Part shown: in pieces, positions 5,031 through 28,241 of the stretch
Numbering within the stretch: position 1 is the stretch's first letter
Layout: each line of letters starts with the position of its first letter
DNA from: Paraburkholderia ginsengiterrae
GTDB taxonomy: Bacteria > Pseudomonadota > Gammaproteobacteria > Burkholderiales > Burkholderiaceae
Direction: 5' to 3'
Length of the DNA stretch: 64,000 nucleotides
Assembly: GCF_001645125.1 (NCBI RefSeq)
Contig: NZ_LXKA01000132.1
Location: 62,001-126,000 of the forward strand
Notes under the pieces: model-generated
What the model saw: the letters and a program-made list of their open reading frames with translations, nothing else
What the model was told of the DNA's origin: nothing
Database searches by the model: none
Program-made: the position numbers and the translations under genes

Positions 5031-5059
5031 ACGGCCAATGTGTTGGCTAATTCCGACAT
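5031..5059. promoter_or_regulatory. AdpA-like TGGC box pair upstream of the broken GlxA-type regulator
   Basis: Plus-strand TGGCTAATTC (5044-5053) lies six bases from an opposed minus-strand TGGCCGT half (5031-5037). The block CGGCCAAT-N2-GTTGGC-N2-ATTCCGACAT is shared almost base for base with 15914-15942. It sits about 110 bp before the regulator's ATG. GlxA-like proteins such as Streptomyces AdpA bind TGGC-started boxes, so an operator for one or both local regulators is likely; that assignment is inference. Confidence 0.5.
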
Positions 5060-5161
5060 GAAATATTGCTAAGGGAATCAAACGTATAGCATGCTCAAAT
5101 AAGAAAAATACAGGGTCTTGGAGAGAAGACTTTGCAGACCAAACATTCCGGGGAAAAATAA

Positions 5162-6145
5162 ATGGACTTGGTAGAAACTCTGCCGCGCAGCTCGCGGCAA
5201 AGTGCCGCGCCGATACAAATGAACGCGTTGACTCGCGTTGATATTGCGCTGTTTAACGGATTCGCACTACCTACAGTCGCAGCAATCATCGAGATATTTC
5301 AGAAGGCAAACTCGCTTGTCGCGGCGCAGCGACCGGGCCGTGCCCGCTACGATGTCTCATTGCTTTCGGCTGCGGGTGGACGCATTGCCAGTTCGTCGTC
5401 AGTATTTGTCTGGACGGATGACGTGCAGTCGCATCGAGGCACGAACGAGACACACCTCTTGTTTATTGCCGGTGGTGCGGGCGTACAGCAAGCATGCCGC
5501 GACGAGCGGTTGAGCACCTGGATTCGACGCAGGCATCCGTTCAGCGAGATCGTGCACCCTATCGCGGAAGGCCAACTGCTGCTCTAGGCAGCCGGGCTAC
5601 CTAGTCGCTATTACCCGCTTGTTTCAGGAGGCAACGAAGCAAACGGCCTGCAACCGGCGCGCTCGCTGACAGAAGCGCCAGGCGCCGTAATGACGGCGCT
5701 GCGCATCGTCGAAGAGGATCTCGGGGCCGATCTGGCGCAACAGGTTGCTGAGTCGATCGCGCCGCAACCCACGCCTTCGTTCTGCTCATCGGTTACGATT
5801 GGCATCACGCCGCAGGTCAGCGAGAAAATCTTGGCGTCGGCACGGTGGCTGGAAGCGAACGTCGATCGCCCCATCTCGATCGACGATGCCGCTCAGGTCG
5901 CGGCAATGAGCGAGCGCAACTTCCTGCGCCGCTTCAAGAGCGAGATCGGCATGACGCCTTCTGACTATCTGCTCCGTGCGCGTCTAAAGATGAGTTGCCG
6001 GATGCTCGTTGATTCACGTCTGCCGGTCGACAAGATCGCGCGCCGCTGCGGTATCGGCAGTGGCGGGCAGTTGTCGAAGCTGTTCAGAAAATATCTGGCG
6101 ACGACACCGACGGACTATCGCGTGCGCAACCAGGTAGCACCGTAG
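5162..6145 (+). pseudogene. GlxA-type AraC-family regulator interrupted by one in-frame TAG
   Basis: Without the stop this would be a 327-residue transcription factor: an N-terminal DJ-1/PfpI-like domain (roughly residues 25-195) and a C-terminal AraC double helix-turn-helix (roughly 225-320, with MSERNFLRRFK and VDKIARRCGIGSGG). A TAG at 5585-5587 falls in frame after 141 codons, and the frame is open again right after it. The paralog in this window reads LLLEAAGY where this gene reads LLL-stop-AAG, so a single GAG-to-TAG change explains the break. The upstream piece would lack DNA binding. The downstream piece has an ATG at 5690 and could give a free DNA-binding domain. A sequencing error or recent inactivation are both possible. 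It is transcribed away from rfbD and toward the exopolysaccharide genes. Confidence 0.85.
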
Positions 6146-6166
6146 ACGGCTCGAACAGGCTCCAGT

Positions 6167-6715
6167 TCAACGGCACGAGCTCGCTCCATGGAGCTCGGTC
6201 GTCATGCCTGATAGCGGCATCGAACAGGCAATGCCAGACATGTTCAACATCGATGCGGGCGGTAACGAAGCCGCATTCATTCCTGGCACCATCGATGGCA
6301 GGACCACCCCGCCGCCCGCTTTGCGCATGCCAGGCAGACTCAGCAACGCACTGTTCTTCATCGACATCGCGCCGGCCAGCGCACCCGCACCACCCATGCC
6401 ACTCGCAAGAGCCATCTGGCCCGCCAGCAAGGTCCGGGACGTTGTGATCTGCGCTGTCGGCGACAGCGGATCGGTGTTGGACGTGAGTTCCCGCAAACGC
6501 CGGTCCGGATCGCTCTGTGCAATGAGCGCCATATACGGATCGTTCGATATCCGCCGACGATGCTTTTGCTGAGTCGTTTGCAGAAGCGACGAAGTCAACG
6601 CTGATCGCAGGCCGGAGTCGCCTACCATCTGTGCCTGTGCGACTGGAAAACCGAGCGCAGAAATCATTGCGGAGGCAACCAGACCGTGGGCAAGATACTT
6701 CGCGAAAGATTTCAT
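6167..6715 (-). CDS. Hypothetical exported protein
   Basis: Unrecognised 182-residue protein. The start chosen (MKSFAKYLAHG) gives a classic Sec signal peptide ending near PVAQAQ at about residue 29, with AGG ahead of the ATG. The mature part is rich in Ser, Ala, Met and Gly, has no cysteine pairs or membrane segment, and contains a basic KHRRR stretch. It is the last gene of the leftward run that begins with the second AraC-type regulator and the glycosyl-1-phosphate transferase, 45 bases after the latter. A periplasmic or secreted accessory role in polysaccharide production is possible, but only context supports it. Confidence 0.7.
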   Translation of the reverse strand: MKSFAKYLAHGLVASAMISALGFPVAQAQMVGDSGLRSALTSSLLQTTQQKHRRRISNDPYMALIAQSDPDRRLRELTSNTDPLSPTAQITTSRTLLAGQMALASGMGGAGALAGAMSMKNSALLSLPGMRKAGGGVVLPSMVPGMNAASLPPASMLNMSGIACSMPLSGMTTELHGASSCR

Positions 6716-6760
6716 GTGAACCTGGAATAGAAACGGCAAACGGTATGCGCAACCGTGGGA

Positions 6761-7852
6761 TCAATACGCGGCTTTGGCGATGAAGCCTTTGAAAAACGTC
6801 ATCCCGATAATCTTGATATCCAACCAGAAACTCCAGTTCTGAATGTAGTAGAGATCGAACATCACGCGAGCCGCCATCTTCTCGACGCGGTCCGTTTCAC
6901 CACGCAATCCGTTGATCTGCGCCCAACCCGTGATACCTGGCTTGATGCGATACCGGTACATATAGTCGTCGACCAGGTCCTTGTACAACTCATCATGTTC
7001 GACTGCGTGGGGGCGAGGCCCAACCACTGACATCTGCCCTTTGAGCACATTGAAGAACTGCGGCAATTCGTCGAGACTCGACTTGCGCAGGAATGCACCG
7101 ACTCGGGTAATGCGCTTGTCGCCGCGACGGGCCTGGGTCAACCGGCCCGCCTCCTCGACATGCTGGTGCATCGTGCGAAACTTGTAGATCGCAAACTCTC
7201 GTCCGTCGACGCCTTTGCGCATCTGCCTGAACAGAATCGGCCCTGGCGAGGAGAACCGCACGGCAATCGCAATCATCACGAGAAGCGGCGAGATCGACAA
7301 CAGCACGAACGCTGCGAACAGACAATCGAAAAGGCGCTTGGGCCACTCGACGTTCGGCGTCAACGGCGAGGCCACAAGATTGATTGCGGGCAATCCATGC
7401 ACATTGACGAAAGCCGGCTTCGCAAGTGCAAAGTCGCGTAAATCCGGTATCAGCCGGATATTGACGAAGTCGTGCCGGAACTCGCGAACGTAATGCTCGA
7501 TCGATGGTTGGCGCATGGGATAGCCGAGAAGCCAGAGCTCCCTGATTCCACGCAGGCGCACCAAGGCACCCAGTGTTTCCAGCGAGTTGACAAGCGGCAG
7601 GCCCGCGACGTTGCCCGCTTCCTGCGCATGCTCATCGAACACGAGCTCCGGTGAGAACGGTCCGGAGGTAGAAGCGAGGACGTGGTCGAGCAAGGCACCC
7701 GACGCCGGGCCAATCGCGATCGCGACCGGCGAACTATCGCGCGGCGCACGTCCGCCGAACCTGGCCACTTGACTGAGTGCGGCCTTGGCCACCAGCGACG
7801 CTCCGATCACAGCGAGCACGAGATAGGTCAGGTTGAGCATAGCGGAGAACAT
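6761..7852 (-). CDS. Undecaprenyl-phosphate glycosyl-1-phosphate transferase, short form (WcaJ/BceB family)
   Basis: Starts the repeat unit by moving a hexose-1-phosphate (glucose or galactose) from the UDP-sugar to undecaprenyl phosphate at the inner membrane. The C-terminal half is a full bacterial sugar transferase domain: membrane re-entrant stretch after KRLFDCLFA, SPGPILFRQ, YKFRTM, SSLDELPQFFNVLKG, SVVGPRP and KPGITGWAQINGLRGE. A Rossmann-like CoA-binding_3 region covers about residues 40-150. The protein has 363 residues where most family members have about 460, and only one N-terminal membrane helix (residues 5-26) where four are usual. It follows the AraC-type regulator by 24 bases on the same strand. 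The reaction is secure; the sugar is not readable from sequence. Confidence 0.9.
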   Translation of the reverse strand: MFSAMLNLTYLVLAVIGASLVAKAALSQVARFGGRAPRDSSPVAIAIGPASGALLDHVLASTSGPFSPELVFDEHAQEAGNVAGLPLVNSLETLGALVRLRGIRELWLLGYPMRQPSIEHYVREFRHDFVNIRLIPDLRDFALAKPAFVNVHGLPAINLVASPLTPNVEWPKRLFDCLFAAFVLLSISPLLVMIAIAVRFSSPGPILFRQMRKGVDGREFAIYKFRTMHQHVEEAGRLTQARRGDKRITRVGAFLRKSSLDELPQFFNVLKGQMSVVGPRPHAVEHDELYKDLVDDYMYRYRIKPGITGWAQINGLRGETDRVEKMAARVMFDLYYIQNWSFWLDIKIIGMTFFKGFIAKAAY

Positions 7853-7876
7853 GAATAAGCCCCCAAAAACATTGTC

Positions 7877-8896
7877 CTAACTGGATCGAAAGACCTGCCG
7901 AAGGTTGGCACGATAGTCGGTCGGTGTCTTGCCTAGATGCTTGCGGAACAGCTTCGCGAGCCGACCACCGCTCCCGATGCCGCAGCGTCGCGCGATCTTA
8001 TCGACCGGCAACGTGGTCTCCGCCAATAACCGGCAAGACATGTCGAGCCGGACATAAAGCAGGTAGTCGGAAGGCGTCACGCCGAGCTCTGCCTTGAAGC
8101 GCCGCAGAAAATTGCGCTCGCTCATCGCGGCGACCACCGCTGCTTCGTCAATACCCACCTGACGATGGCCGTTCTCCTCGAGCCAACGTGCCGATGCCCG
8201 GATTTTTTCGCTAACGCCGTGCGTCGCATTCCGGCGCACGATATCGGTGAACTGGGTCGCGGCGGGAGGCGACACGACATCCGTGATATGGCGGACTGCC
8301 TGCGGCCCCAGCTCATCGTGGATCAACGTCAGAGCCGAACGCAGCGGACTTGACACGCTGCCGCGAGTCATATCCCACGCGTCCCGCTCTCCAGCGGCGC
8401 GATAGGTTGTTTTTTCGCCTGCCGACTCGGCCTCGAAATAACGCCGGTAGCCCGCGGCTTCAAGCAGCAACCGTCCTTCACCAACCGGATATACGTTCTC
8501 GGTCATGGGGCACGTGCGGCGCAGCCACGCGAGCAGTTCTTCGTCCCGCAATGCATGATTGACATCCGCCCCTCCCGCGATAAAGAGCGCATGAAAACGG
8601 TCCGGATGCCGTCGTGTCTCGATGCTTTCCGTCCAGACGAAGACCGATGACGAACTTGCGATACGGCCGCCGATTGTCGATAGCAGACAAACGTTAAAGC
8701 GTGCCGAACTGCTCTCACCCGACCTGGTGATTTCGTTCGCGCATTGGAAAGCTTCCATAATGCAAGCGATCTCAGGAAGCGCAAAGCCATCGAATAATGC
8801 GATGCCTATTGTTTTCACTGTGTCATTGCTGTGTAAGGTGCGCCGGCCATATCCGCTGCGGCAATTTAGAGGCACGAACACCGCGATGCTCGCCAA
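7877..8896 (-). CDS. GlxA-type AraC-family transcriptional regulator
   Basis: A DJ-1/PfpI-like sensor domain (about residues 28-205, IGIALFDGFALPE to the EAAGY block) is joined to an AraC helix-turn-helix domain (about 230-335, with MSERNFLRRFKAE and VDKIARRCGIGSGGRLAKLF). It is the intact paralog of the broken gene at 5162-6145; the two share long identical stretches in both domains. The N-terminal 26 residues are poorly supported, and a GTG at 8818 that starts VKTIGIALF is a good alternative start. It heads a leftward run with the glycosyl-1-phosphate transferase and an exported protein, so it probably controls exopolysaccharide synthesis and perhaps itself, through the TGGC boxes at 8955-8970. 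The ligand is unknown. Confidence 0.88.
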   Translation of the reverse strand: MASIAVFVPLNCRSGYGRRTLHSNDTVKTIGIALFDGFALPEIACIMEAFQCANEITRSGESSSARFNVCLLSTIGGRIASSSSVFVWTESIETRRHPDRFHALFIAGGADVNHALRDEELLAWLRRTCPMTENVYPVGEGRLLLEAAGYRRYFEAESAGEKTTYRAAGERDAWDMTRGSVSSPLRSALTLIHDELGPQAVRHITDVVSPPAATQFTDIVRRNATHGVSEKIRASARWLEENGHRQVGIDEAAVVAAMSERNFLRRFKAELGVTPSDYLLYVRLDMSCRLLAETTLPVDKIARRCGIGSGGRLAKLFRKHLGKTPTDYRANLRQVFRSS

Positions 8897-8954
8897 CCAC
8901 GCCGTCCTTCAAACGAGCCCATGTTACGAAACACTCCGTTCGAAACGACCGGGC

Positions 8955-8970
8955 TGGCCGAATCAGGCCA
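8955..8970. promoter_or_regulatory. AdpA-like overlapping TGGC boxes ahead of the intact GlxA-type regulator
   Basis: Plus-strand TGGCCGAATC (8955-8964) overlaps minus-strand TGGCCTGATT (8961-8970), forming a near-palindrome. The minus copy fits the published AdpA consensus TGGCSNGWWY. It lies 59 bp upstream of the annotated start. Autoregulation is inferred. Confidence 0.45.
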
Positions 8971-9129
8971 CATCTTGACCGTTCGCGGACATGGATCTTA
9001 AATTAGGTATCCGATACATATTCAATGCAAGTAAGGCTTGATAAGACTTGCGGGTTTCTTGACTTTTAGCAGCTACCATGAACGTCGCTCAGACCAAGGT
9101 CCGTGTGCTCCGTCCTCACCGTCAATGCC

Positions 9130-9155
9130 CGGGGTGCTTTAAAGAGAACACCCCG
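9130..9155 (-). terminator. Hairpin after wzc, weak terminator
   Basis: A perfect 7-bp stem CGGGGTG/CACCCCG with a 12-base loop lies 34-59 bases past the wzc stop. There is no T-run on the minus strand, so it may be an RNA-stabilising or Rho-assisted end rather than a true intrinsic terminator. Confidence 0.4.
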
Positions 9156-9188
9156 CGGCCCCACATCCTGTCACGGTGCCATATTCAA

Positions 9189-11453
9189 TCAGCCTTGACG
9201 GGCGTACCGGTAGCCATAGCCGTAGTCATAGCGCGTCGCGTGGAAGCCGTTGAACACCTGCCCCGCGACCTTGATGCCAAATTGATTGAAACGATTCATG
9301 GTTTCAATCAACTGGTGCCGGCTCGTCACTTCGGCTCGCGAGACCACGAAGACGGCGCTGCAGACCTGCGAGACAGTCACCGCGTCGCTAACCGGCAGAA
9401 CCGGAGGCGAGTCGACAATCACATAGTCGTAGTGGGCTTCCGCGTCCTTTAGCAACGCTGCGAACGCAGGCCTCTCCAGCAACTCACCTGGATTCGGCGG
9501 CAAATTGCCACCGGCAGGTAAAAATTCAAGCCCGTCGAATCCAGTCTTGATGACTGCCTTGTCGAGTGCCGTGTTATCAGCAAGGACGTTCGCGAGCCCG
9601 AGATGTGCCGGTGCCAGCGAGAAATACCGTTTGAGTCCCGAACGCCGCATGTCGGCGTCGATCAGGAGCACGCGCAGCCCTTTCATCGCGAGGAGATAAG
9701 CGAAGTTCGCGGCGACGAAGGTCTTGCCGACACCCTGCGTCGGACCAGTGAACAGGATCGAGCCGCCTTCCTTGCCAAGCAAAGCGAATTTGAGTGTGGT
9801 TCTCAACGAGCGTAAGGCTTCGACGCTAGGGTCGGACGCATCCGTACCGGCCAAAAGCGCCATCACACGTTTGCCAGTCTTGCTCCTGTCTCTCGCGATC
9901 TCCAGCTCGGCAGGGCTGGACGGCACGACCGCATAGATCGGCACCTGCGCCACGCGCTCCACCTCCAGAGGATCACTCAGTGCATCTTTCATCGCTGCCA
10001 ACGCCTGCACCACGACGAATGCGATCAACAATCCGCCAAGCACGCCGCCGGCGATCACGATCGGGACCTTTGGCCAGTCAGCCGACTCCGGCGGGACCGC
10101 GAAATCGATGATGGATACGTTACCCGTCGTCCCCGCCTCAGCGACCTCGAGTTGCTGCGCATTGGCCACCAGCGCCGTATAGAGCTGAGTGTCCACCGCT
10201 ACGTCACGCGCAAGGCGCAGGTAGTCCTGCTGTGTCGAAGGGAGTGCCTGTACCTCCTTGTCGATCCCGTGCAGCGCCTGGTCGAGCGCCGCATCCTGCG
10301 CCTGCAGGGTCTGCACGGCCGGGTGCCCGGCTCGGAACTGCTCGCGCGTCGCCTGCAGATTCAGATCGACTAGCGTCTTCTGTTTCGTCAGATCCACGGC
10401 GCGCGTGAGCAGCGCCTCTGTTTGTGCTTCCACATCGATCGTTTTCGTGCGGATGCGATACGCGTTCAAGCGGTCTTCGGACTGCTCGAGCTCCTGGCGA
10501 AACGCGGGCAGCTTGCGACTGAGGAATTGCAGGCTCAGGCGCGATTGTTCGGCGCGATGGCGAATGTTCAGCGCCACATAGGCGCGTGCAACCTCGTTGG
10601 TAAAGCTGGCGGCCAGTTCCGGGTCCGTATTTTTAAAAGACAGTGCGATCATCGACGAATCCTTTGTCGTCTCCTCGACTTTCAGGCGCTTGCTGATCCC
10701 CTCAATCGTGTCTTGCAACGACGCTTCGACGAGCTTGAACGATGTGCCCGGACGTCCGCGCAGCATACGCACCTCAATCGAACCTTTGCCCGGGCCGTAG
10801 TCCGTCTGCACAGTAAAGTCCACGCGCTGGCCAACGCCTCCCGACGCCACCGTCATGTCGTCGCGATCGACGAGTGTCCAGCGATTGCCGGGCTGCACGT
10901 GCAGTCGGAATTTCTCGCCAAAGAGTGCTCTGGGTACGTCGAAGGCAGCCAACTCAAGCCGCTCACCGCCCCAGGCGAATCCCGAGAGTCCAAGCGGCGG
11001 GTCGGCGAGGCCGCCCGGCGGCGTGGCGTAGCGGCCATAGAGCCGCCCCAATACAGGAATACGGTTCGCCACGGATATCGCCGTGCGCGCCTGGGTGGCG
11101 TTGATAGCCTGCTCGAGTACAGCGCGTGAAGCAACGATGTCGAGCTCGCCATCGATCGGCTTGTTGAGGCTAAGCGCACTGGCTACGTCCGACAATGCCC
11201 CGAGCGCGGAGCCTTGCTGCTCGTCCACCTGGATCAGCGCCTCGGCCTTGTACACAGGCGATGCGACCAGCACATAGAGCAGCGCCAAGGTGGCAATTCC
11301 TGCGGCTACGCCTGCAAACAGACGGGCATGGCTCTGAACGTTGTGCCAGAGAGTCAGAAGACTAATGTCTTCTTCGGCACCGGCTGACGCCAGGTTAGGG
11401 ATCGGCATCTTATGCAACGTCGATTCTGACTTCATGTTGAGTGTCGCCTTCAT
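9189..11453 (-). CDS. wzc: Polysaccharide co-polymerase and tyrosine autokinase (Wzc/BceF)
   Basis: Inner-membrane protein that sets chain length and couples polymerisation to export through Wza. Its cytoplasmic BY-kinase domain phosphorylates its own tyrosines. 754 residues: Wzz domain with a first membrane helix near residues 38-60, a long periplasmic coiled region, a second helix near 455-480, then the kinase with Walker A GPTQGVGKTF, Walker A' VLLIDADMRRSG and Walker B YVIVDSPPVLPVSDA. The C-terminal tail is a tyrosine cluster (YDYGYGYRY), the usual autophosphorylation site. Its ATG overlaps the stop of the phosphatase gene by 4 bases, so the kinase and the enzyme that dephosphorylates it are translationally coupled. 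Confidence 0.95.
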   Translation of the reverse strand: MKATLNMKSESTLHKMPIPNLASAGAEEDISLLTLWHNVQSHARLFAGVAAGIATLALLYVLVASPVYKAEALIQVDEQQGSALGALSDVASALSLNKPIDGELDIVASRAVLEQAINATQARTAISVANRIPVLGRLYGRYATPPGGLADPPLGLSGFAWGGERLELAAFDVPRALFGEKFRLHVQPGNRWTLVDRDDMTVASGGVGQRVDFTVQTDYGPGKGSIEVRMLRGRPGTSFKLVEASLQDTIEGISKRLKVEETTKDSSMIALSFKNTDPELAASFTNEVARAYVALNIRHRAEQSRLSLQFLSRKLPAFRQELEQSEDRLNAYRIRTKTIDVEAQTEALLTRAVDLTKQKTLVDLNLQATREQFRAGHPAVQTLQAQDAALDQALHGIDKEVQALPSTQQDYLRLARDVAVDTQLYTALVANAQQLEVAEAGTTGNVSIIDFAVPPESADWPKVPIVIAGGVLGGLLIAFVVVQALAAMKDALSDPLEVERVAQVPIYAVVPSSPAELEIARDRSKTGKRVMALLAGTDASDPSVEALRSLRTTLKFALLGKEGGSILFTGPTQGVGKTFVAANFAYLLAMKGLRVLLIDADMRRSGLKRYFSLAPAHLGLANVLADNTALDKAVIKTGFDGLEFLPAGGNLPPNPGELLERPAFAALLKDAEAHYDYVIVDSPPVLPVSDAVTVSQVCSAVFVVSRAEVTSRHQLIETMNRFNQFGIKVAGQVFNGFHATRYDYGYGYRYARQG

Positions 11454-11899: not shown

Positions 11900-11936
11900 A
11901 GTTAGCTCCGTGTGTCGATAAAAGTCATCGCGCGCC

Positions 11937-13175: not shown

Positions 13176-13272
13176 TTGTCGATCCTTGACTGCTTGAGCC
13201 GTTGCAATGACGGCCGGTGAGCGCACCACGAGTCCCGATGCCAGGCGCGCGCCCGTCCGGCATCGGCGTGCG

Positions 13273-14705: not shown

Positions 14706-14708
14706 CGC

Positions 14709-15770
14709 TCAGGTTCCTGTCAGTTCATTGGAAAGGAATGCCCGGCGATAAGCGCCGGAGTGAATGGCGTCCGTCCACGCCTCGTTGTCGACGTACCATT
14801 GCACGGTCCGTGCAAGACCGCTGTCGAAAGTCTGGCTCGGCTTCCAGTCGAGTTCCCTCTCGATCTTGCTCGCGTCGATTGCGTACCGACGGTCGTGACC
14901 TTTGCGATCAGCCACGTAAGCGATCTGATCGCGATAGCTGCCGTTTCGGCGCGGACGCACTTCATCGAGCAGGGAGCAGATGCGGTTCACCACATCGACG
15001 TTGGTGTGTTCGTTGCGCCCGCCGATGTTGTACGTCTCGCCGGGCCGCCCCTTTGCCAGTACTGTGCGGATCGCATCGCAGTGGTCGCCAGCGTAGAGCC
15101 AGTCGCGCACATTGCGCCCGTCGCCGTATACCGGCATCGGCTGACCATGCAGCGCGCGCTGGATCATCAGTGGAATGAGCTTCTCGGGAAACTGGTAAGG
15201 ACCGTAGTTGTTCGAACAGTTCGTTGTCAGCGTTGGCAGACCGTAGGTGTGGTGATAGGCACGCACCAGATGATCGGAGGAGGCCTTCGAAGCTGCGTAC
15301 GGGCTATTCGGCGCATAAGGCGTCATTTCTGAAAACGGATGATCGTCTGGCTCGAGGGAGCCGTACACTTCATCGGTGGACACGTGCAGAAACCGGAATG
15401 CGCTCTGCTGCGGCAGCGGCAACGTGCCCCAATAGGCGCGCGCAGCATCCAGCAACGTCGCCGTGCCGACCACGTTGGTTTCGATGAACTCGTGCGGCTG
15501 ATCGATCGAGCGGTCTACGTGGCTCTCCGCAGCAAAATGCACGACGGCACGCGGCTGGTAGCGCCTGAAAAGCGTGTCCAGCGATTCGCGGTCGACGATA
15601 TCCACGTGCGCAAATGTGTGCCGGGCGTCACCTTGCAACTCATGCAATGTCGTGTAGTTACCCGCGTAAGTGAGCTTATCGACGTTGAGGACGGGTTCGG
15701 CATTGCAGGCCAGCCAGTCGATGACGAAATTCGCTCCGATGAAACCGGCCCCGCCAGTCACAAGGATCAT
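14709..15770 (-). CDS. rfbB: dTDP-glucose 4,6-dehydratase
   Basis: NAD-dependent dehydration of dTDP-glucose to the 4-keto-6-deoxy sugar. It is a 353-residue extended short-chain dehydrogenase with GGAGFIGANFV at the N terminus, HVSTDEVYGSLE (active-site Thr-Asp-Glu) and the catalytic Tyr/Lys in YAASKASSD. It is the first gene of the leftward rfbB-rfbA-rfbC-wza-wzb-wzc run. Its promoter must lie in the gap shared with the divergent glycosyltransferase, where a cluster of TGGC boxes is seen. Confidence 0.97.
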   Translation of the reverse strand: MILVTGGAGFIGANFVIDWLACNAEPVLNVDKLTYAGNYTTLHELQGDARHTFAHVDIVDRESLDTLFRRYQPRAVVHFAAESHVDRSIDQPHEFIETNVVGTATLLDAARAYWGTLPLPQQSAFRFLHVSTDEVYGSLEPDDHPFSEMTPYAPNSPYAASKASSDHLVRAYHHTYGLPTLTTNCSNNYGPYQFPEKLIPLMIQRALHGQPMPVYGDGRNVRDWLYAGDHCDAIRTVLAKGRPGETYNIGGRNEHTNVDVVNRICSLLDEVRPRRNGSYRDQIAYVADRKGHDRRYAIDASKIERELDWKPSQTFDSGLARTVQWYVDNEAWTDAIHSGAYRRAFLSNELTGT

Positions 15771-15897
15771 GTTGAGCCCTCGTTATATTGTTGGAAATAT
15801 CTCGACCACCTGGTCCTAATCCGCCACGCTCATTGAATCAAATGCAACCGTGACGCACCGCACGAATTTCACGGCTGGAGGATGGCTATGTTAGGAG

Positions 15898-15940
15898 TGG
15901 CGAAGTAGCCGATTCGGCCAATTCGTTGGCGCATTCCGAC
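15898..15940. promoter_or_regulatory. AdpA-like TGGC box cluster in the rfbB / glycosyltransferase divergent promoter
   Basis: Minus-strand TGGCCGAATC (15911-15920) and plus-strand TGGCGCATTC (15927-15936) face apart with a 6-base spacer, the same layout as the pair at 5031-5053. A weaker plus-strand TGGCGAAGTA begins at 15898. Placement between the two divergent exopolysaccharide transcripts suggests joint control by a GlxA-type regulator. Confidence 0.5.
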
Positions 15941-16017
15941 ATCGTCGGCAAACGAGTCTGCATGCCTTAATAACGTCGGTGCGAAATCTGCGGGCGATGC
16001 GGGTCCACCGGTTAGTT

Positions 16018-16053
16018 TGGCGGAATCGATAACAACAGTGACCGAATTCGCCA
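16018..16053. promoter_or_regulatory. Second AdpA-like TGGC box pair in the same divergent promoter
   Basis: Plus-strand TGGCGGAATC (16018-16027) and minus-strand TGGCGAATTC (16044-16053) point toward each other across 16 bases. Both match TGGCBNAWTC exactly. They lie 83 bases or more ahead of the glycosyltransferase ATG. Confidence 0.45.
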
Positions 16054-16135
16054 CGCTCTTTGCCCTACCCTAACGTCTGGGTAGCTTTTGTTCAGCGCAA
16101 CATCGGTGCGCGAATCAACGACGGAATCAAGCGAT

Positions 16136-17398
16136 ATGCCAGTCGGTCAACTTTTCATTTTGGGCACGCGAGGGATCCCTGCGCGCCACGGTGGTTTCGA
16201 GACGTTTGCGGAGAGACTTGCGCTTTATCTCACCCAACGCGACTGGAAAGTCACGGTGTATTGCCAGGGCGAGACCGGTGAAACGGAGACCGTCGAAGAC
16301 ACGTGGCGTGGCGTACACCGGATCACCATTCCCGTCGCGCGCGACGGTGCTCTGGGTACGATGGAGTTCGACTGGAAGTCGGTGCGCGACACGGTTGCGC
16401 GCAAGCCTGCGCTGGTCCTGACGCTCGGCTACAACACGGCTGTTTTCTGCACGTATTTGCGCTGGCACGGCATTACGAATCTGATCAACATGGACGGACT
16501 CGAGTGGCGTCGCGAGAAGTGGAAGTTCCATGAGCGCGTGTGGCTCTGGCTCAACGAGCGAGTTGGTTGCTGGACGGGCAATCACCTGATCGCCGATCAC
16601 CCGGAGATCGCATCACACCTCGCCACACGCGTCAATCGCCGCAAGATCACAACGATTCCTTACGGGGCGGACCCCGTCGGCGCCGCAAGCCTCGAGCCGC
16701 TCAAGGAGCTTGGAATCGAGGACACGTTCTATGGGCTCGTGATCGCACGCCCGGAGCCGGAGAATTCGGTGCTGGAGATTGTGACCGCATTCTCGCGCCG
16801 GCCGCGCGGCGCGAAGCTCGTCGTGCTGGGCAAATACGACGCCGAGGCTCACACATACCACCGCGAAGTGATCGAGGCGGCAAGCGACGAAGTCGTTTTT
16901 CCCGGCGCCATCTACGATCAATCGGCCGTGCGTGCACTACGACGCCATGCACATTTCTATCTGCATGGTCATCGAGTGGGTGGCACCAACCCGTCACTCG
17001 TCGAAGCACTCGGTGCTGGCAGCGCAGTGATCGCGCACGACAATGTGTTCAATCGATGGGTAGCGGGACCGGAGGCGCGATTCTTCGCGACGGAAGTCGA
17101 CTGCGATATGCACATCTCGGCGCTGCTCGGCGATCCTGCTACCGCGCGAGCCATGGGCGATGCGAGCCTTCAACGCTTCGAGAGCGCGTTTCGCTGGGAC
17201 AGCGTGCTAGCGCAGTATGAGGCGTTGCTGCATCGTCATACGGGCGGGGGCAAACGCAATGTGGTGCCCGCTTCACGTCCGGCACATCGTGTCCCGGATC
17301 GCAAACCAGCAATCGACACGCTCGCTCGAATTCCCAATGCAGGTTCGGGAGTCGCGAATGCGGTACGTGTGGAGCATCTTGGGAGCGAGGTGGAATAG
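16136..17398 (+). CDS. Glycosyltransferase, family 4 with DUF1972 (rhamnosyltransferase-like)
   Basis: 420 residues. The N-terminal DUF1972 domain (LFILGTRGIPARHGGFETFAERLA) is the hallmark of a GT4 subgroup that includes rhamnosyl- and galactosyltransferases of capsule loci. The GT-B C-terminal domain contains IPYGAD, LVVLGKY and the donor-site motif GGTNPSLVEALGAGSAVIAHD, with the expected Glu. The first ATG of the frame is 48 bases upstream; I chose the later ATG because it starts next to the conserved fold. It is transcribed away from rfbB and followed by the GH5-like gene. With dTDP-rhamnose made next door, a rhamnosyltransferase is likely; the acceptor is unknown. Confidence 0.88.
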   Translation: MPVGQLFILGTRGIPARHGGFETFAERLALYLTQRDWKVTVYCQGETGETETVEDTWRGVHRITIPVARDGALGTMEFDWKSVRDTVARKPALVLTLGYNTAVFCTYLRWHGITNLINMDGLEWRREKWKFHERVWLWLNERVGCWTGNHLIADHPEIASHLATRVNRRKITTIPYGADPVGAASLEPLKELGIEDTFYGLVIARPEPENSVLEIVTAFSRRPRGAKLVVLGKYDAEAHTYHREVIEAASDEVVFPGAIYDQSAVRALRRHAHFYLHGHRVGGTNPSLVEALGAGSAVIAHDNVFNRWVAGPEARFFATEVDCDMHISALLGDPATARAMGDASLQRFESAFRWDSVLAQYEALLHRHTGGGKRNVVPASRPAHRVPDRKPAIDTLARIPNAGSGVANAVRVEHLGSEVE

Positions 17399-17511
17399 AC
17401 GTGTGGCGTCATTCACTCTCGAAAGACCTGAGAGTACGCACTCGGCAGCATCGCTCTTTGAATGCTTTGTCTATACTTAATGTCCCATCAAACCAAGGCT
17501 CATCGCTCTTC

Positions 17512-19674
17512 ATGTCTCGACGTTTTCTTACCAGTGCCGGCAAGAAAATCTCTGTTACGGCAATCGCGTCGATTCTCTGCTGCTGCGAATCTCAAGGTTC
17601 CGACGTCTTGCGATACGAGCCGGTCAGCATCGCGGGGACATCACCGGGTCTCGTGCTTGATGCGAAACAGCAGCGCGCGCCGCTCGGAAGTGCAGATCGC
17701 GTTGTCATACGCAACGGTCATTTCTTCACAGTCGGCACACCGGGCACGCCAGGCAGTAGCAGGCGCGTGCGATTTTTCGGTGTATCGCTAGCGCTCGCGG
17801 CGAATTTTCCTTCTGAAAATGACGGCGAAGTACTCGCACAACGTCTCGCAGCGCTCGGCGTCAATATCGTCAGGCTCCATGCAATCGATCAACCCGCACA
17901 AAATTCTGCCGACGGCCCCGTCGGCATGTTACGAGATGCTGCGAGTCCGCAACTCGATCCGCAAGCCGTCGCCGTGCTATCGAGATTCATTACCCAGCTG
18001 GGACGCCATGGCATCTACGTTGATCTGAATCTTCACGCGAATCACACCTTTCCGGTCAAACAGACCGGCGATCGCATTCCTCCGCAAAGCAAGCCCTTGT
18101 CCATTATCGACGCGGATATGATGGTCTGGCAGGCAACTTATACAAAGAACCTGCTTTCGGCACTTCAACTGCGCGACCGCCCAAACCTTGCGATGGTCGA
18201 GATCAACAATGAAGCCAGTCTTGTTGATACATGGCAGGAAGGGAACCTGGCTTCACTTGTTACTGGCGGGTTCCTCGATGCATTGCGTGAGAAATGGCTT
18301 GTCTATCGCAAAAATCGGCAGTTGAATGCCACGCCTCTACCGCTTGAGCGCTCGGGGTTATCTACTGACGATGCGCGCGTTGCCGCCAGCTTCTTCATTG
18401 ACCTGGACGCAAGCTACATCAGGCGAATGGTTGGCACAGTCAGGGACGAGCTTGGCGACGACGTACCGATATCCGGCACTCAAATCATTCATTCCGGGCG
18501 CTGGAATCATGGAGGCTTTGCGAACTTCGACGTAAATAGCGCCGCGAGCTTCACGGACGCACATTTCTACGTCGACCACTATCTTTTCCCGCATCGGCAA
18601 TGGGACTGGACTGACTGGCGCATTTCGAATGGCTGGTTAGGTGACGCCCCTGAACAGACCTTGCTCAACACCGCCTTTGCGCGCGCTGCTGGTCGCCCAT
18701 TTGTGATCAGCGAGTTCAATCAGGCGTGGCCAAACCAGCAGGCCTCCGACCTGCTTCCGGTTGTGACGCAGTTTGCCGTCGCGCAAGATTGGGATGGACT
18801 GATCCTTTACGATTACGCGCACGATCGCGAATGGAACGCCTTTACGCCTTCCGATTTCAGCTTGCGTGGGGATCTCACAAAACTCGCTCAATTCGCGCAA
18901 TGCGCGGCTTACTTTCGTGCCCTGTATCCCGGCACTGCGTTAGCGCAGTCATTTATTGCCCTCTCACCCGACGATCGTGCGGTGGCCGATGGTAAGGGCA
19001 TAACGGGCAACCTCGCATCTTATCTCTCGAAGCACTTCGGCATTCCTCCAAGTGTCGCAATGACGCGCCAGATTGCGCTCGAAAATGCACCCAACTTCGG
19101 TGTGCGCTCGGCCGCTACCATGGAGACGTCGTCTTATTTCTCCTATGACAAGGCAGCGCGTCAATTCATATTCGGATCCGCGTACGCTGCCGGAATCTCT
19201 GGCTTTATTCCGGTCGGTCATCGCGTGGCCTCCTCATTGCTCGAATTGACGCTAGCTCCGGGAAGCCGTGGATTTGCAACGGCATTCCTCACTAGTCTGG
19301 ATGGCAAGCCGCTCTCCACCTCGCACCGCCTGCTGCTTTCAATACCCGGGTTCACCATGGGGACTGACAACCGTGAAACGCAGCAACTCGCAGCAGCCGA
19401 CTTGCGGGGACAATGGCGAACAATACTGCCCAGAGAAGGCGATCAGCCTTCCGCCAGTCTTTACAAGGTCGCAGGGCCCGCACAGATGGAACGCATTCCT
19501 GCCACCGTCGCCCTTCAGCTTTCGACCGCCCGAGCTTCCGTATTCGCTCTTGACATCCAGGGACGCAGGGTTCAGCCTGTCACGTCCAAAACCGATGGTC
19601 AGCGCATCACTTTCGACATCAATCGCGAAGGACAGCCTTGGGCAGCAAACTACGAGATCACGTTAGAGCGGTAG
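17512..19674 (+). CDS. GH5/cellulase-like glycoside hydrolase, exported
   Basis: 720 residues from the chosen ATG, with a hydrophobic N-terminal segment (about residues 11-25, running into CCC) that looks like an export signal but lacks a canonical lipobox. The core has the clan GH-A layout: FFGVSLALAANFP start, the acid/base in MVEINNEAS (Glu 234) and the nucleophile in FVISEFNQAW (Glu 401), about 167 residues apart. The last 200 residues look like a beta-rich appended domain. Encoded just after the glycosyltransferase on the same strand. It probably trims or releases the polysaccharide in the periplasm or outside the cell. The substrate is not known, and the start could be at 17401. Confidence 0.78.
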   Translation: MSRRFLTSAGKKISVTAIASILCCCESQGSDVLRYEPVSIAGTSPGLVLDAKQQRAPLGSADRVVIRNGHFFTVGTPGTPGSSRRVRFFGVSLALAANFPSENDGEVLAQRLAALGVNIVRLHAIDQPAQNSADGPVGMLRDAASPQLDPQAVAVLSRFITQLGRHGIYVDLNLHANHTFPVKQTGDRIPPQSKPLSIIDADMMVWQATYTKNLLSALQLRDRPNLAMVEINNEASLVDTWQEGNLASLVTGGFLDALREKWLVYRKNRQLNATPLPLERSGLSTDDARVAASFFIDLDASYIRRMVGTVRDELGDDVPISGTQIIHSGRWNHGGFANFDVNSAASFTDAHFYVDHYLFPHRQWDWTDWRISNGWLGDAPEQTLLNTAFARAAGRPFVISEFNQAWPNQQASDLLPVVTQFAVAQDWDGLILYDYAHDREWNAFTPSDFSLRGDLTKLAQFAQCAAYFRALYPGTALAQSFIALSPDDRAVADGKGITGNLASYLSKHFGIPPSVAMTRQIALENAPNFGVRSAATMETSSYFSYDKAARQFIFGSAYAAGISGFIPVGHRVASSLLELTLAPGSRGFATAFLTSLDGKPLSTSHRLLLSIPGFTMGTDNRETQQLAAADLRGQWRTILPREGDQPSASLYKVAGPAQMERIPATVALQLSTARASVFALDIQGRRVQPVTSKTDGQRITFDINREGQPWAANYEITLER

Positions 19675-19825
19675 TCCTTTCGAATGGAGATGTGCGTGAT
19701 TACCGACGCGGCCGATGATCGACCACACCGGGGGACAACGTACACGTTGCGCGCAACACCACGACAGCGACCGGCGCTATGTCAGAAAGTGCCGGCCTTT
19801 CCTTACGCCCTTAAACCGTAGCCAA

Positions 19826-21088: not shown

Positions 21089-21094
21089 GTTCAC

Positions 21095-23691: not shown

Positions 23692-23710
23692 CGATTTACG
23701 ACTATCGTCT

Positions 23711-24865
23711 TTAGCGTGTTCTGCGCTGAAATACAGCAGCCAGGCCCGACCGCCTTGCGTTATCGGGCAATGGCTGCACCGTGTCGGCAACCGAGCGCAT
23801 GTATGTCTGGACAGTGAATGCGCCGAGATACTTCTGCTGCGCGGCTTCCGCCATCTCGGCAAACGCCTCATGCGTTGTCGCCAGCGCCCGTTCCACCACT
23901 CTTATAAAATCCGTCATATCGCCAGGTACGAACAGAAAACCGTCGACACCGTCGGTCACGATCTCCTGCAAGCCGCCAGCGGCCGCGGCGATCACCGGCC
24001 GCCCCGACGCGAAACTTTCGATCGCCACCCGTCCGAAAGGTTCGGGCAGAACCGAAGGCACCACGACGAAGTCGGCCCAAGCGAAATGCGCAGCGGGATC
24101 GCTCGTAAAGCCTTCGATTTCCACTGTCTGCGCGCACTTTTTCGCGGTCTCATGAAGCGTATCCAGCAAGGCCTCGTACCCCGGGAAGACATCCCCCACA
24201 ATGCGCACCTGCACCGGCAACCGTCGCCCAAGCGTGGACAGCGCATCGAGTACGAATTGCTGTCCTTTCCATGGATTGATACGGCCGATGATCGCGAGCC
24301 TCAGCGTACGGTTCTGCATCGCGTCGATACGGGCAACAGGGCCGGCGACGTCGACCCCGTTGTGGATCACGACACCCGGCAACGCGAATGCCTCCGCCGT
24401 CGCACGCGAGTTATAGATTAGCGAGGCACGCGAGACCTTCAGCAAGGTCCTGAAACATCCAAGGGCGAACGAGGACGGAATCTCCCGCACATGCACGTAG
24501 GTGCCCGCACGCTGTCCGCGCAGCGCCGCTATCGCGGCCACGCACACAACCGTATTCACATAGCAGATCTGGTACGAGCGAAACATGCGCCGATAGTCCA
24601 GCCACGCCGCGATCATGCGCCGGCATGTTTGCCAGGGCCGTGCCTTTAGTTCCTTCTTGCGCAGCACACCATAGCCGTTGTAAAGAATTCGGCTCGCGTA
24701 GCGCGCGACGTGATCGACAATTGGACCCGGCTCCGGCAACACAACGTCGATCGTCGCGTGCGGATGTCGCTCGCGCAAAGCACACAGTGCTGACACGAAG
24801 CTGCGATCGGACCCATAGAGTTCCGCGCCCTGATGGACCATCACGATTGCAAGCGATGTACTCAA
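23711..24865 (-). CDS. Glycosyltransferase, family 4
   Basis: 384-residue GT-B protein. It begins with LAIVMVHQGAELYGSDRSF, typical of the loop near the acceptor site. The C-terminal half holds AIIGRINPWKGQQFVLDAL, the Rossmann block VQVRIVGD, and VVPSVLPEPFGRVAIESFASG with the E-X7-E donor motif. Its start overlaps the stop of the upstream GT2 gene by 4 bases. It adds one sugar of the exopolysaccharide repeat on the cytoplasmic side; donor unknown. Confidence 0.9.
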   Translation of the reverse strand: MSTSLAIVMVHQGAELYGSDRSFVSALCALRERHPHATIDVVLPEPGPIVDHVARYASRILYNGYGVLRKKELKARPWQTCRRMIAAWLDYRRMFRSYQICYVNTVVCVAAIAALRGQRAGTYVHVREIPSSFALGCFRTLLKVSRASLIYNSRATAEAFALPGVVIHNGVDVAGPVARIDAMQNRTLRLAIIGRINPWKGQQFVLDALSTLGRRLPVQVRIVGDVFPGYEALLDTLHETAKKCAQTVEIEGFTSDPAAHFAWADFVVVPSVLPEPFGRVAIESFASGRPVIAAAAGGLQEIVTDGVDGFLFVPGDMTDFIRVVERALATTHEAFAEMAEAAQQKYLGAFTVQTYMRSVADTVQPLPDNARRSGLAAVFQRRTR

Positions 24866-25698
24866 CGAAACACCTCCGCAAGCACGTCAAAGAAATTTCC
24901 CCGCGCGCGCGCGCCGATTGACACGCTCAAGGCTTTCCACAACACATAGCAGCGGATTGCCAAGGCCTCGAACAGATTGCGGTCGAATACGCGCAACCAC
25001 GACTGCCAAAGCCATATCTGGCGCTGCAGTGCCGCTCGCGGGTCGATCGTGCTGCGCAGCGCCGAATCGTGGCCGAGCACCGCCCCATGGAGATAAGCCC
25101 GCGCGCCATGCCGCCCAAGATCGCGGCAGAAGCGGGTGTCGACGCCGTAGAAGCGCAGCCGCTCGTCGAATGGCTGTGGTGCCAGTTGCGAGAGGAGGCT
25201 CCGGCTGATGCACATCCCGCTCATCATCGCGGTAAAGTCAGTCGGCAACATGGCATTCGTGGTGACACTGCGCAGTGCCTGGCCCTTGATCCATCGCAGG
25301 CGTCCGGGACTAATCAGATGCCCGTCGTGGCGGATGACGGGGACGAATACATCGGCCCCGAGTTCGGCCTTGCCGAGACTGTCCGCCAGCTTTTCAAAGA
25401 ACGCCGCATCGACGCTCGAGTCCTGATCGAAGATGATCACGTGCTGGCGCGTCGATTCGTTCACCAGCACGTTGTACACCTTGGAGAGTGGTTCATTTTC
25501 CGGAGAGGCCAGATAGCGCCAACGGAACGGCAAAAAATGCGGATTCGGTGGTGTGGGGATCGCTCGCCCGTTGTCCCAGATGTGCACCTCGACATCGATG
25601 CCGAGCGCCGCGAAATCTATACGGCTCAACGTCACGAGCGTTTCGGCCGCTTCGGGATCGCGCCGGTACAGTACAACGAAGATATCAAGCTCCGCCAT
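24862..25698 (-). CDS. Glycosyltransferase, family 2 (rhamnosyltransferase-like)
   Basis: 278 residues from the ATG that starts MAELDIFVVLYRRDPEAAETL. The GT-A nucleotide-binding fold is followed by IIFDQDSSVDAAFFEKL, where DQDSS carries the DXD metal site; the same motif is common in RfbF-like rhamnosyltransferases. Another 23 codons are open upstream but lie inside the acetyltransferase gene. The start overlaps that gene's end by 14 bases. With dTDP-rhamnose as a local product, rhamnose transfer is a fair guess. Confidence 0.85.
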   Translation of the reverse strand: MAELDIFVVLYRRDPEAAETLVTLSRIDFAALGIDVEVHIWDNGRAIPTPPNPHFLPFRWRYLASPENEPLSKVYNVLVNESTRQHVIIFDQDSSVDAAFFEKLADSLGKAELGADVFVPVIRHDGHLISPGRLRWIKGQALRSVTTNAMLPTDFTAMMSGMCISRSLLSQLAPQPFDERLRFYGVDTRFCRDLGRHGARAYLHGAVLGHDSALRSTIDPRAALQRQIWLWQSWLRVFDRNLFEALAIRCYVLWKALSVSIGARARGNFFDVLAEVFR

Positions 25699-26398
25699 CG
25701 TCGCCTCCGCGCCGGCTACCCACGACACGTCCTGGAACGCCAGCGACAATGGAGTACGGCGGCACATCGCGGGTGACCACTGAACCCGCGGCGATCACAC
25801 TGCCCTTACCGATCCTCACGCCGCCGAGTACCGTGACGCGCGCGCCCAGCCAGCAGTCTTCTTCAATGTAGATCGCCATGCGTGTTGTGCCCTGCTCCCG
25901 AATCGGCCGTGACAGATCCTTGAAGTTGTGATTCTCCGGATGCGCGCTGAAGTACTGACCAATGATCGTGTTCCTTCCGATAGAAACACCCCCCGAGCCA
26001 CCTATACTCGAGTACTCGCCAATGCCACAACCGTCACCGATATGAATGTGGCTGCCGGGACGGGCGACGTCCGTGCCGACGATAAGCCTCGAATACGCAC
26101 CGACGTTGACCCGTGTACCGAGCCGCAAGCCGTTTAGACCCAGGCCGCTAAGAATTGCACCGTCGCCAATAGTGGTGTAGCGTCCGAGTTCGATATTCCT
26201 CGCGAAACGCATCCGCACATTCCGCCCCACAAAGCACAGCTCGGTGCGTTTGGAGCGTAACGACAGCACCGTGCCTCGCAGCCCATTCCAACTCTGTTCC
26301 GCGAGATAGAGCATCAGATCAAGGCCGCCCACTTCACCGGCGATCTGCTTACCGGGCCGAACACGCATCAGTACCCGGTTGACAATCTCTTTCAACAT
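25685..26398 (-). CDS. Hexapeptide-repeat acetyltransferase (LbH fold)
   Basis: 237 residues. From about residue 70 there are repeated hexapeptide turns ([LIV]-G-X4), e.g. IGDGAILSG, VNVGAYSRL, IGDGCGIGEYSSIGG and IGKGSVIAAGSVVTRDVPPYSIVAGVPGRVV, the left-handed beta-helix of CysE/WcaF-type O-acetyltransferases. The HPENHNF stretch offers the catalytic His. It probably acetylates a sugar of the exopolysaccharide using acetyl-CoA. It lies between ugd and the GT2 gene on one strand. Confidence 0.87.
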   Translation of the reverse strand: MLKEIVNRVLMRVRPGKQIAGEVGGLDLMLYLAEQSWNGLRGTVLSLRSKRTELCFVGRNVRMRFARNIELGRYTTIGDGAILSGLGLNGLRLGTRVNVGAYSRLIVGTDVARPGSHIHIGDGCGIGEYSSIGGSGGVSIGRNTIIGQYFSAHPENHNFKDLSRPIREQGTTRMAIYIEEDCWLGARVTVLGGVRIGKGSVIAAGSVVTRDVPPYSIVAGVPGRVVGSRRGGDDGGA

Positions 26399-26473
26399 CG
26401 CGTCGCCATACAAAATTGCGCGCCGGCAACCTGAAGTGACCAGCGCGCACGTTAGACACCTTGCTCTTCGTGC

Positions 26474-27844
26474 TCAGGCCGCGGCACGAGCAGCATCGCG
26501 GCCGATCGTGTAATAGACCCAGCCTGCCGATTTCATAGCGTGCGGGTCATACAGATTGCGTCCATCGAAAATCAATGTGTCTTTGAGCGCCACCTTCATC
26601 TGTTCGAAGTCGGGGCTGCGGAATTCCTTCCATTCCGTGAGGATGACGAGAGCGTCCGCGCCGAGAAGCGCCTGATCGCGGTCTTGCGAGAATTCGATGC
26701 GCGCGAAACTGTTAGCGTCGAGGTCATCCCTCAGGCAACGCCTAGCCTCCTCGAGGGCAACAGGGTCGTAGACGCACAACGTGGCGCCGTGGCGCAGCAG
26801 ATCCGCGATCAGACGGCGGCTTGTCGCCTCCCGCATATCGTCCGTGTTTGGTTTGAACGACAACCCCCACACGGCGAGGCGTGCGCCGCGCAGTGCGTCG
26901 CCGAAATGCCTGCGGATTTTGTTGAACAGCACGGTCTTCTGGCGCTCATTGACGAATTCGGCAGAGGCGAGGATGTTCAACTCCATGTCGTATTCTCCAG
27001 CGGTTCGCATTAGCGCCTGTACGTCCTTTGGAAAACACGAGCCACCGTACCCGCAGCCCGCATACAGGAAGCTGTAGCCGATGCGCGGATCGGAGCCAAT
27101 GCCGCGGCGAACATTCTCGATGTCGGCCCCGACGCAGTCGGCCAGGTTGGCCATCTCGTTCATGAACGAGATGCGCGTGGCCAGCATGGCGTTCGCGGCA
27201 TACTTGGTGAATTCGGCCGAACGCACATCCATGAACAGCGTGCGCTGGTGGTTGCGATTGAACGGTGCGTAGAGCTGCTCGAGCAAACTTCGGGCGCGAA
27301 GTCCCGACACGTCATCGTCGCATCCGATCACGATGCGATCAGGCCGCATAAAATCCTCGATCGCTGCCCCTTCCTTGAGGAACTCGGGGTTCGATACGAC
27401 CGCAAACGGCAAGTCCACCTTGCGCAACGCCAGCTCTTCTGCAATTGCCGCTTGCACCTTGCCGGCGGTACCGACGGGCACCGTCGATTTGTCGACGATG
27501 ATCTTGAACCCGTTCATGTATTTGCCGATGTTCTTCGCGGCAGCGATCACATATTGCAGATCGGCAGATCCGTCCTCGTCCGGCGGTGTACCCACGGCGA
27601 TGAACTGTATATCGCCGTGCGTGGCTGCTTGCGCCACATCGGTCGAGAACGCAAGGCGCCCTGCTTCGCGATTGCGGTCGATCACGTTCGCCAACCCCGG
27701 CTCGTAAATCGGGATCCGACCATTGTTAAGCATTGCAATTTTTGCTTCATCGACGTCAAGGCAGAGCACGTCATTGCCCAGTTCTGCCAGACACGCGCCC
27801 GTAACGAGGCCGACGTATCCGGTTCCGATAATGGTGACTTTCAT
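26474..27844 (-). CDS. ugd: UDP-glucose 6-dehydrogenase
   Basis: Oxidises UDP-glucose to UDP-glucuronate with two NAD+; this supplies the acidic sugar. 456 residues from [23 protein letters not shown] (NAD-binding loop). The catalytic Cys is in [14 protein letters not shown] near residue 260, and the C-terminal UDP-binding domain has [17 protein letters not shown]. Fifteen more codons are open upstream but are not part of the family. It heads the leftward run ugd, acetyltransferase, GT2, GT4, GT4, wzx, wzy. Ahead of it is a TGGC box pair. Confidence 0.96.
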
Positions 27845-27967
27845 TGATCCGGGTAGCAGGAGTGAGAATAGGCGGCATGGCATCGACAAGTACGGCTGTA
27901 TGCGCCACGATGGTTAATACTCGATCGGCACCCATTCTTCACGAACCATTCGCTGGGTTGATTTATC

Positions 27968-27982
27968 TGGCGGATTTCGCCA
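27968..27982. promoter_or_regulatory. AdpA-like TGGC box pair upstream of ugd
   Basis: Minus-strand TGGCGAAATC (27973-27982) matches TGGCBNAWTC exactly and overlaps plus-strand TGGCGGATTT (27968-27977), forming TGGCG-N5-CGCCA. It is 124-138 bases upstream of the ugd start and faces it. Confidence 0.45.
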
Positions 27983-28241
27983 ACATAATTTCCGTATATC
28001 GCAAAGTCTGCCCTCCGAACCACTATAGCCTCTGCGTCGAGGGAGGCTGCACTTATAACGAGCGGGGGACCTTACACGCCTCATCGCCTACGATGAGTCA
28101 GCTTTTACTCGCATTAGCCAAAATTGGGGCTTCTTCCGCCAGCGCGTTCCTCGCACGATTCGCCACACCTATGCTTAACCCGGGTCATCCGCAAGATGAT
28201 CTGACAGGCTCGCGCGAGCGTGGCCTGCCGCCTCGGAATTA

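Follow-up and report, generated by a model that had tools for sequence, protein, structure and literature searches.

AraC of Escherichia coli occupies, at araI1-I2, tandem half-sites that are ~21 base pairs (bp) apart beside the −35 position and have the form TNGC-N7-NCCA. Autoactivation by AraC-type regulators is already known. In the same family, CuxR of Sinorhizobium meliloti has a role in exopolysaccharide control. It is described as a protein that binds cyclic dimeric GMP (c-di-GMP; PMC9045272). AdpA of Streptomyces combines a DJ-1-like with an AraC domain; two of its arginines are described as contacting bases (PMC8994273), and the protein is described as controlling hundreds of genes (PMC8653842). 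For the cepacian (bce) and Bep exopolysaccharide clusters of Burkholderia, control by sigma-54, NtrC and BerA/BerB is described, and the term "AraC" is not named in the main text of that article (PMC7378592). Exopolysaccharide in these bacteria is associated with root attachment and drought tolerance (PMC7378592, PMC11341992). Here, we analyze a 64,000-nucleotide stretch of Paraburkholderia ginsengiterrae (contig NZ_LXKA01000132.1, positions 62,001 to 126,000; hereafter the window) that contains an exopolysaccharide locus, two genes for DJ-1-like/AraC regulators, and a recurrent DNA element ahead of these and other genes of the locus.

The intact regulator of the window, regulator 2 (7877..8896, minus strand), consists of a DJ-1-like N-terminal domain and an AraC-type DNA-binding domain, based on Pfam and structure matches, and its nearest named homologues are from Paraburkholderia. 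The HTH_18 (5e-21) and HTH_AraC (8.7e-14) matches are above the cut-off and place the protein in the AraC/XylS family, and the DJ-1-like fold at its N-terminus places it among the DJ-1/PfpI (GATase1)-AraC proteins. The DNA-binding domain is structurally close to AdpA and other AraC domains, with AdpA (3w6v, the best single-sequence match) and 3oio as the best solved-structure matches. Arg261 and Arg265 align with the two base-reading arginines of AdpA and are invariant in 30 aligned homologues, as are many recognition-helix residues. In the N-terminal domain, a conserved Glu140-Gly141 pair is seemingly found at the nucleophile elbow (placed by eye), and no cysteine of the N-terminal domain, at the elbow or elsewhere, is conserved in 30 homologues; Cys288 and Cys305, the only cysteines in invariant or nearly invariant columns, belong to the DNA-binding domain. 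Regulator 1 (5162..6145, plus strand) has the same two domains and carries an in-frame TAG at 5585-5587. Its orthologue in genome G124 is open and lacks an internal stop. The coding frame of regulator 1 is thus broken, yet its operator and −10 element are intact. Stops also occur inside matches to other homologues, in G123, G055, G125, G048 and G177.

Relative to the described systems, this locus shares individual features with each. With AdpA, the regulators have in common the domain pair, the two arginines and, in the half-site, the core TGGC. In contrast to AdpA, whose consensus has G at position 7, the local element has A, and the local operator is longer, tandem, and followed by a −10 element at a set distance. 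The tandem spacing, the position adjacent to −35 and the form of the half-site are similar to those of AraC, which differs in its cupin N-terminal domain and in the letters of its half-sites. CuxR is likewise an AraC-family regulator tied to exopolysaccharide genes. The RxxxR motif of CuxR and VfmE was considered as a route for c-di-GMP control and rejected: among 64 homologues, single members contain RxxxR strings, and none of these is conserved N-terminal to residue 230. CuxR is not among the 50 fold matches listed, which excludes nothing. The best partial NCBIfam matches are to GbdR/FtrA-type GATase1-AraC regulators, at scores far under the cut-offs (67 versus 480 and 70 versus 425). Finally, the control of bce and Bep also governs exopolysaccharide clusters in the same bacterial family, but through other types of regulators.

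An earlier note on this DNA had reported a box, TGGCBNAWTC, at seven positions, and a search reproduced the coordinates and strands of all of them (5044, 8955, 15927 and 16018 on the plus strand; 15911, 16044 and 27973 on the minus strand). Two further exact matches, at 1631 and 13768, are coding. The resulting total of nine compares with a mean of 3.71 (standard deviation 1.95) in shuffled sequences, and at least nine were reached in 3 of 100 shuffles, so the bare count is weak evidence. The placement is stronger: seven of the nine matches fall in non-coding DNA (binomial probability about 1e-4), which accounts for 10,794 of the 64,000 bases (17%), and their density is 0.65/kb in non-coding versus 0.04/kb in coding DNA, as divided by our own gene calls from codon usage. 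Of the proposal that the box exceeds chance, it is therefore the non-coding placement that holds firmly, and the raw count is mildly high only. In 36 stretches from relatives, 50 non-coding (0.28/kb) and 29 coding (0.06/kb) matches were found, and in four other stretches of the own genome none and three, respectively. The extended similarity noted between 5031-5059 and 15914-15942 was confirmed as well.

Alignment of the DNA upstream of regulator homologues revealed a longer element, ttGnCnnnanCcGCCA-N5-TTGgCnnATTCgGCCA, that includes the 10-mer. At a near-constant distance upstream of most homologues, ttGnCnnnanCcGCCAAcaTnTTGgCnnATTCgGCCA is followed by a weaker AataatG. The element is best read as two tandem AraC-type half-sites, TTGGCnnATTCgGCCA-like in their predicted form and 21 bp apart. 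A first matrix was trained on 51 distinct sites, contributed by 54 of the 68 upstream stretches; L033, L012_3044, L097_17475 and L085_5898 among them are doubtful. For the matrix from the 63 regulator promoters described below, the best direct-repeat shift is 21. An inverted-repeat reading of CCAANNNNTTGG, which is better by self-similarity, was set aside: all 56 sites found upstream of regulators (described below) have the same orientation, on the strand of the regulator, which favors a directional element. Across 41 stretches, which include the window (its sites being outside the training set), a matrix of the element matches 105 times in 200,409 non-coding bases, a number that includes regulator sites used in training, and only six times in 618,674 coding bases. 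An equal density in coding DNA and a lack of conservation in orthologous promoters would each have spoken against a regulatory site; the density is not equal, and the sites are kept in orthologous promoters.

The element stands at a fixed distance from a −10-like hexamer. Of 63 regulator promoters (the distinct sites among the 69 leave-one-out sites described below, two of them from the window), 57 have TANNAT, with at least three of T, A, A and T matched, starting 53 bp after the first GCCA; no other offset between 40 and 69 has it in more than 20. The commonest forms are TAGCAT (22), TACGAT (19) and TAGGAT (10). At the −35 position (offsets 30-35), the consensus of the 63 promoters is not TTGACA. 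The −10 at offset 53 is also found at non-regulator promoters: for ugd, a small protein gene at 29.3 kb and yjbH, each in two relatives as well as in the window, and for manC in three relatives. This predicted arrangement, with an operator beside −35, a fixed −10 and a poor −35, corresponds to the class II AraC-type layout. A 74-base promoter model was trained on 60 promoters, with the window and the two closest orthologues of regulator 2 (L050 and L051) left out. In 3 Mb of random sequence, no match scores above 4.4. In the window, eight matches score above 5, each of them non-coding by our gene calls and located at 5 to 34 kb. These are regulator 1 (67.0), yjbH (33.8), the small protein gene (27.3), ugd (25.3), the rmlB side of a divergent gap (13.3), regulator 2 (11.8), and two weaker sites near yjbH (11.1 and 5.3). 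The value for regulator 1 is not independent because its G124 orthologue (L084) is in the training set.

To describe the spread of the element, a leave-one-out matrix was built anew from 69 sites with at most three mismatches, both window sites included; upstream DNA of fewer than 400 bases, short matches and matches below 250 bits were excluded before counting. The DNA upstream of 74 of 96 DJ-1/AraC regulators scores at least 6.9 (four of them just 6.9 to 13.8), relative to a null maximum of 3.3, with the element 168-218 bp 5′ of the residue-30 codon. In a midpoint-rooted tree that holds 94 of these 96 rows, and from which regulator 1 was left out because its protein is cut at the stop, the homologues form two large groups. 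The element is present in both and missing from several sub-clades. Of the 145 genomes sampled from the genus, 54 carry the regulator family, with up to ten homologues per genome at E 1e-60 or better among the matches listed (in G096 and others), some as neighboring pairs. With up to one mismatch allowed, the 24-base core gives 134 matches in the 145 genomes, compared to 17 for the reversed pattern. Thirty of the 35 exact copies precede the aligned start of a regulator by 123-188 bp; of the other five, four share a contig with a regulator no more than 40 kb away and one is elsewhere. Among the 99 copies with one mismatch, 26 are in this same upstream interval and 28 within 40 kb. All 56 upstream copies are on the strand of the regulator, and they account for 56 of 133 regulators, counted among matches listed down to E 1.6e-84 with weaker ones left out.

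Conservation on this scale shows, at the level of sequence, both the site and its geometry, and it strongly suggests that these regulators bind the element; that they activate transcription from the adjoining promoters is what we infer from the layout. The best explanation appears to be a regulator family of the Burkholderiaceae, mainly Paraburkholderia, which in the window is represented by the 7877-8896 protein and its interrupted neighbor. We consider it likely that the sites are operators of these DJ-1-like/AraC regulators and that the regulators act as dimeric class II-type activators of their own gene and of the local exopolysaccharide operons. The tandem layout and the promoter without a consensus −35 together point to binding by a dimer, self-activation and joint activation of the targets. 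A dimer, joined via the DJ-1-like domains, would sit on both repeats adjoining the −35 position and recruit sigma-70 RNA polymerase in a class II manner. The regulator gene would thereby activate itself, and the exopolysaccharide operons, with their nucleotide-sugar and export genes, would be switched on jointly, perhaps in response to a signal sensed by the N-terminal DJ-1-like domain.

Several observations weigh against this activator model. TTGACA is matched at four of six letters at offset 32 in 14 of the 63 promoters, and a −10 at the standard distance is missing from the rmlB/glycosyltransferase gap, from rmlC in two relatives and from some other sites. Self-similarity of the matrix from the 63 promoters is higher for an inverted (6.12) than for a direct repeat (2.95), because each half-site is itself close to a palindrome. 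In the leave-one-out analysis, identical sites were dropped but close orthologues kept, and the cut-off of 6 was chosen after the scores were known. No recognizable site was found for 22 of the 96 regulators, including one clade of six. In other genera of the family, the cut-off is passed by only four of 12 regulators (one with a weak score), and nine of the 12 stretches that contain such regulators lack a matrix match. Lastly, 45 of the 99 one-mismatch copies of the core are nowhere near a regulator.

The sites could also serve repression, with the bound regulators keeping polymerase off the promoter until a signal arrives and the regulator gene negatively autoregulated, which we regard as improbable. 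Two features of the gap between rmlB and a divergent glycosyltransferase gene would fit this mode of action. In this gap, two overlapping operators, one per strand, are predicted at 15905..15942, with a GTAGCCnATTCGGnCAAnTCGTTGGCGCATTCCGACATC block that is kept in four of four genomes, and the overlap of sites on both strands is one such feature. The other is a TAACAT directed toward rmlB (15888..15893, minus strand), located in a GCTATGTTAG block, invariant in four genomes and 16 bp closer to the operator than the canonical distance, such that the operator would cover −35. No −10 at the canonical distance was found on either strand for these two operators. At 57 of 63 regulator promoters and at ugd, the small protein gene and yjbH, in contrast, the operator ends beside a −35 that lacks a TTGACA consensus, as would be expected where a promoter depends on an activator. 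Under the activator model, this operator may act in a different geometry in the rmlB/glycosyltransferase gap. The flanking genes are probable targets. One encodes a dTDP-glucose 4,6-dehydratase-like protein (14709..15770, minus strand; Pfam), which we take to be rmlB (rfbB) from its neighbors rmlA and rmlC, and the other a DUF1972 glycosyltransferase (16088..17398, plus strand) that is partly like the rhamnosyltransferase Cps2T (160.8 bits, cut-off 500).

It is also quite unlikely that the site belongs to another DNA-binding protein, such as a global regulator, with the DJ-1/AraC proteins simply encoded next to its targets. This reading could account for the 24 copies of the core (zero or one mismatch) in genomes that lack these regulators, perhaps chance occurrences. 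The matches are, however, concentrated where the regulators occur (110 of the 134 in the 54 regulator-bearing genomes versus 24 in the 91 others), most exact copies (30 of 35) are in the regulators' own promoters, and many residues of the recognition helix are invariant.

Within the own genome (8.53 Mb), the reach of the element appears limited. The first extension, the 15-mer TGGCNNAWTCSGNCA, gives 19 matches at 17 distinct places, and its reversed pattern gives none. Four of the places are at the locus and 13 elsewhere; a wide regulon drawn from this 15-mer was rejected, as 11 of these 13 are inside predicted genes. The 24-base core, at up to three mismatches, is found at 129 places, with 14 at the locus among the 100 matches listed. 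The promoter model scores the 86 off-locus look-alikes among these listed matches at 5.4 for the best, 0.8 for the next and lower for the others. None of the 86 offers a convincing promoter, and as far as this mismatch-based list can show, the regulon appears to be confined to the locus. The single place above the random maximum, C1:205189-205212 (L115), is non-coding and has TGACTC in place of the −10; its score is probably due to chance.

These results bear on the earlier proposal of a link to AdpA, for which the fold and the two DNA-contacting arginines speak and the consensus does not. As the operative motif, TGGCSNGWWY was tried and rejected: it is at most weakly enriched, with five matches in the gaps of the window (0.46/kb) and 15 in coding DNA (0.28/kb). 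Its counts are one non-coding versus 13 coding in the four other stretches of the own genome, and 38 (0.21/kb) versus 102 (0.20/kb) in relatives. That the sites are strict AdpA boxes marking a global AdpA-like regulon is therefore very unlikely, and the promoter scores of the 86 off-locus look-alikes (one 5.4, the rest at most 0.8) are a further difference from AdpA. Finally, the idea that the repeats are chance or mobile sequences without regulatory function, to which the only moderately high 10-mer count could be assigned, is hardly credible given a spacing and position conserved in many genomes despite diverged flanks and the scarcity of the element in coding DNA.

Turning to the individual sites, the operator of regulator 1 (5022..5058, plus strand) comprises half-sites at 5022-5037 and 5043-5058, holds the 5044 box and is followed at the canonical distance by TAGCAT (5087..5092, plus strand). 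It scores 38.0 with the matrix and 67.0 with the promoter model, for which the window was outside the training sets and the promoter of the G124 orthologue inside. The operator of regulator 2 (8955..8991, minus strand; matrix 23.5, model 11.8) holds the 8955 box and is a variant in which TGGC is shifted by one base. It is kept in G124 and G136, and the promoter alignment assigns TAACAT (8921..8926, minus strand) as its −10. For ugd, which encodes UDP-glucose dehydrogenase by domain search (26474..27889, minus strand) and is a candidate target, the operator (27968..28004, minus strand) holds the 27973 box, scores 21.9 with the matrix and 25.3 with the model, and is the same in G124 and G136, with AAGAAT at the canonical distance (27934-27939). 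The glycosyltransferase gene may have a third operator (16017..16053, plus strand), composed of half-site-like stretches at 16017-16032 and 16038-16053, which contain the 16018 and 16044 boxes. This candidate operator is accompanied by TAGCTT at 16082-16087 and a block that is partly invariant in four genomes, and it is weak because it is below the promoter-model threshold. The boxes had been placed ahead of both regulators, rmlB, the glycosyltransferase gene and ugd; the promoter model recovers all of these except the glycosyltransferase strand, which scores −6.5.

Two promoter regions, at 29.3 and 33.3 kb, had been missed; these and the 33.7 kb region lie beyond the range of the earlier note. 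The first operator (29256..29292, plus strand; matrix 21.5, model 27.3) precedes TAATAT at 29321-29326 in an arrangement that is the same in L092 and L181. Its candidate target encodes a conserved small protein of 106 residues (29366..29686, plus strand) that has no Pfam match and looks membrane-bound by eye. The second (33312..33348, minus strand; matrix 27.9, model 33.8) is also the same in L092 and L181 and precedes TATGAT at 33278-33283; its candidate target encodes a YjbH-like exopolysaccharide protein (30671..33046, minus strand; PF06082). The suggestion of one regulon built around the local regulators is partly supported. Upstream of the yjbH region, two more operator-like sites (33737-33770 and 33871-33904) have no obvious adjoining gene, and the former has TACTCT at the standard distance (33709-33714).

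In the literature searched, with subscription journals mostly outside it, no description of this regulator family, operator or regulon was found. The analysis yields a testable list of operators, resolved to single bases, and of their candidate targets for a regulator family carried by 54 of 145 sampled genomes, together with a rule for finding co-regulated exopolysaccharide genes: the operator and a −10 at a set distance. Its interest lies in precise, shared and testable wiring over many loci. As a tentative extension, Paraburkholderia exopolysaccharide loci may share one genus-wide self-activating switch, in which two old regulator clades, often adjacent and with up to ten family members per genome, retain a nearly identical operator and promoter geometry at only ~50-60% protein identity. 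Paralogous loci would then cross-activate, and an acquired sugar cluster would join a common, possibly bistable, on/off decision.

In one sub-clade (L062, L065, L067 and L069), no operator was found; its members have a common stretch near GCCGTCATGCTAGCGCGCCATTGGGACAATCAA about 165-189 bp upstream, which is perhaps a changed operator with a new specificity. Within the exopolysaccharide locus, two proteins have no Pfam or NCBIfam match: a 757-residue protein at 17401-19674 and, just downstream of yjbH, a lipoprotein-like protein of 243 residues with a Gly/Thr-rich tail (29917-30648).

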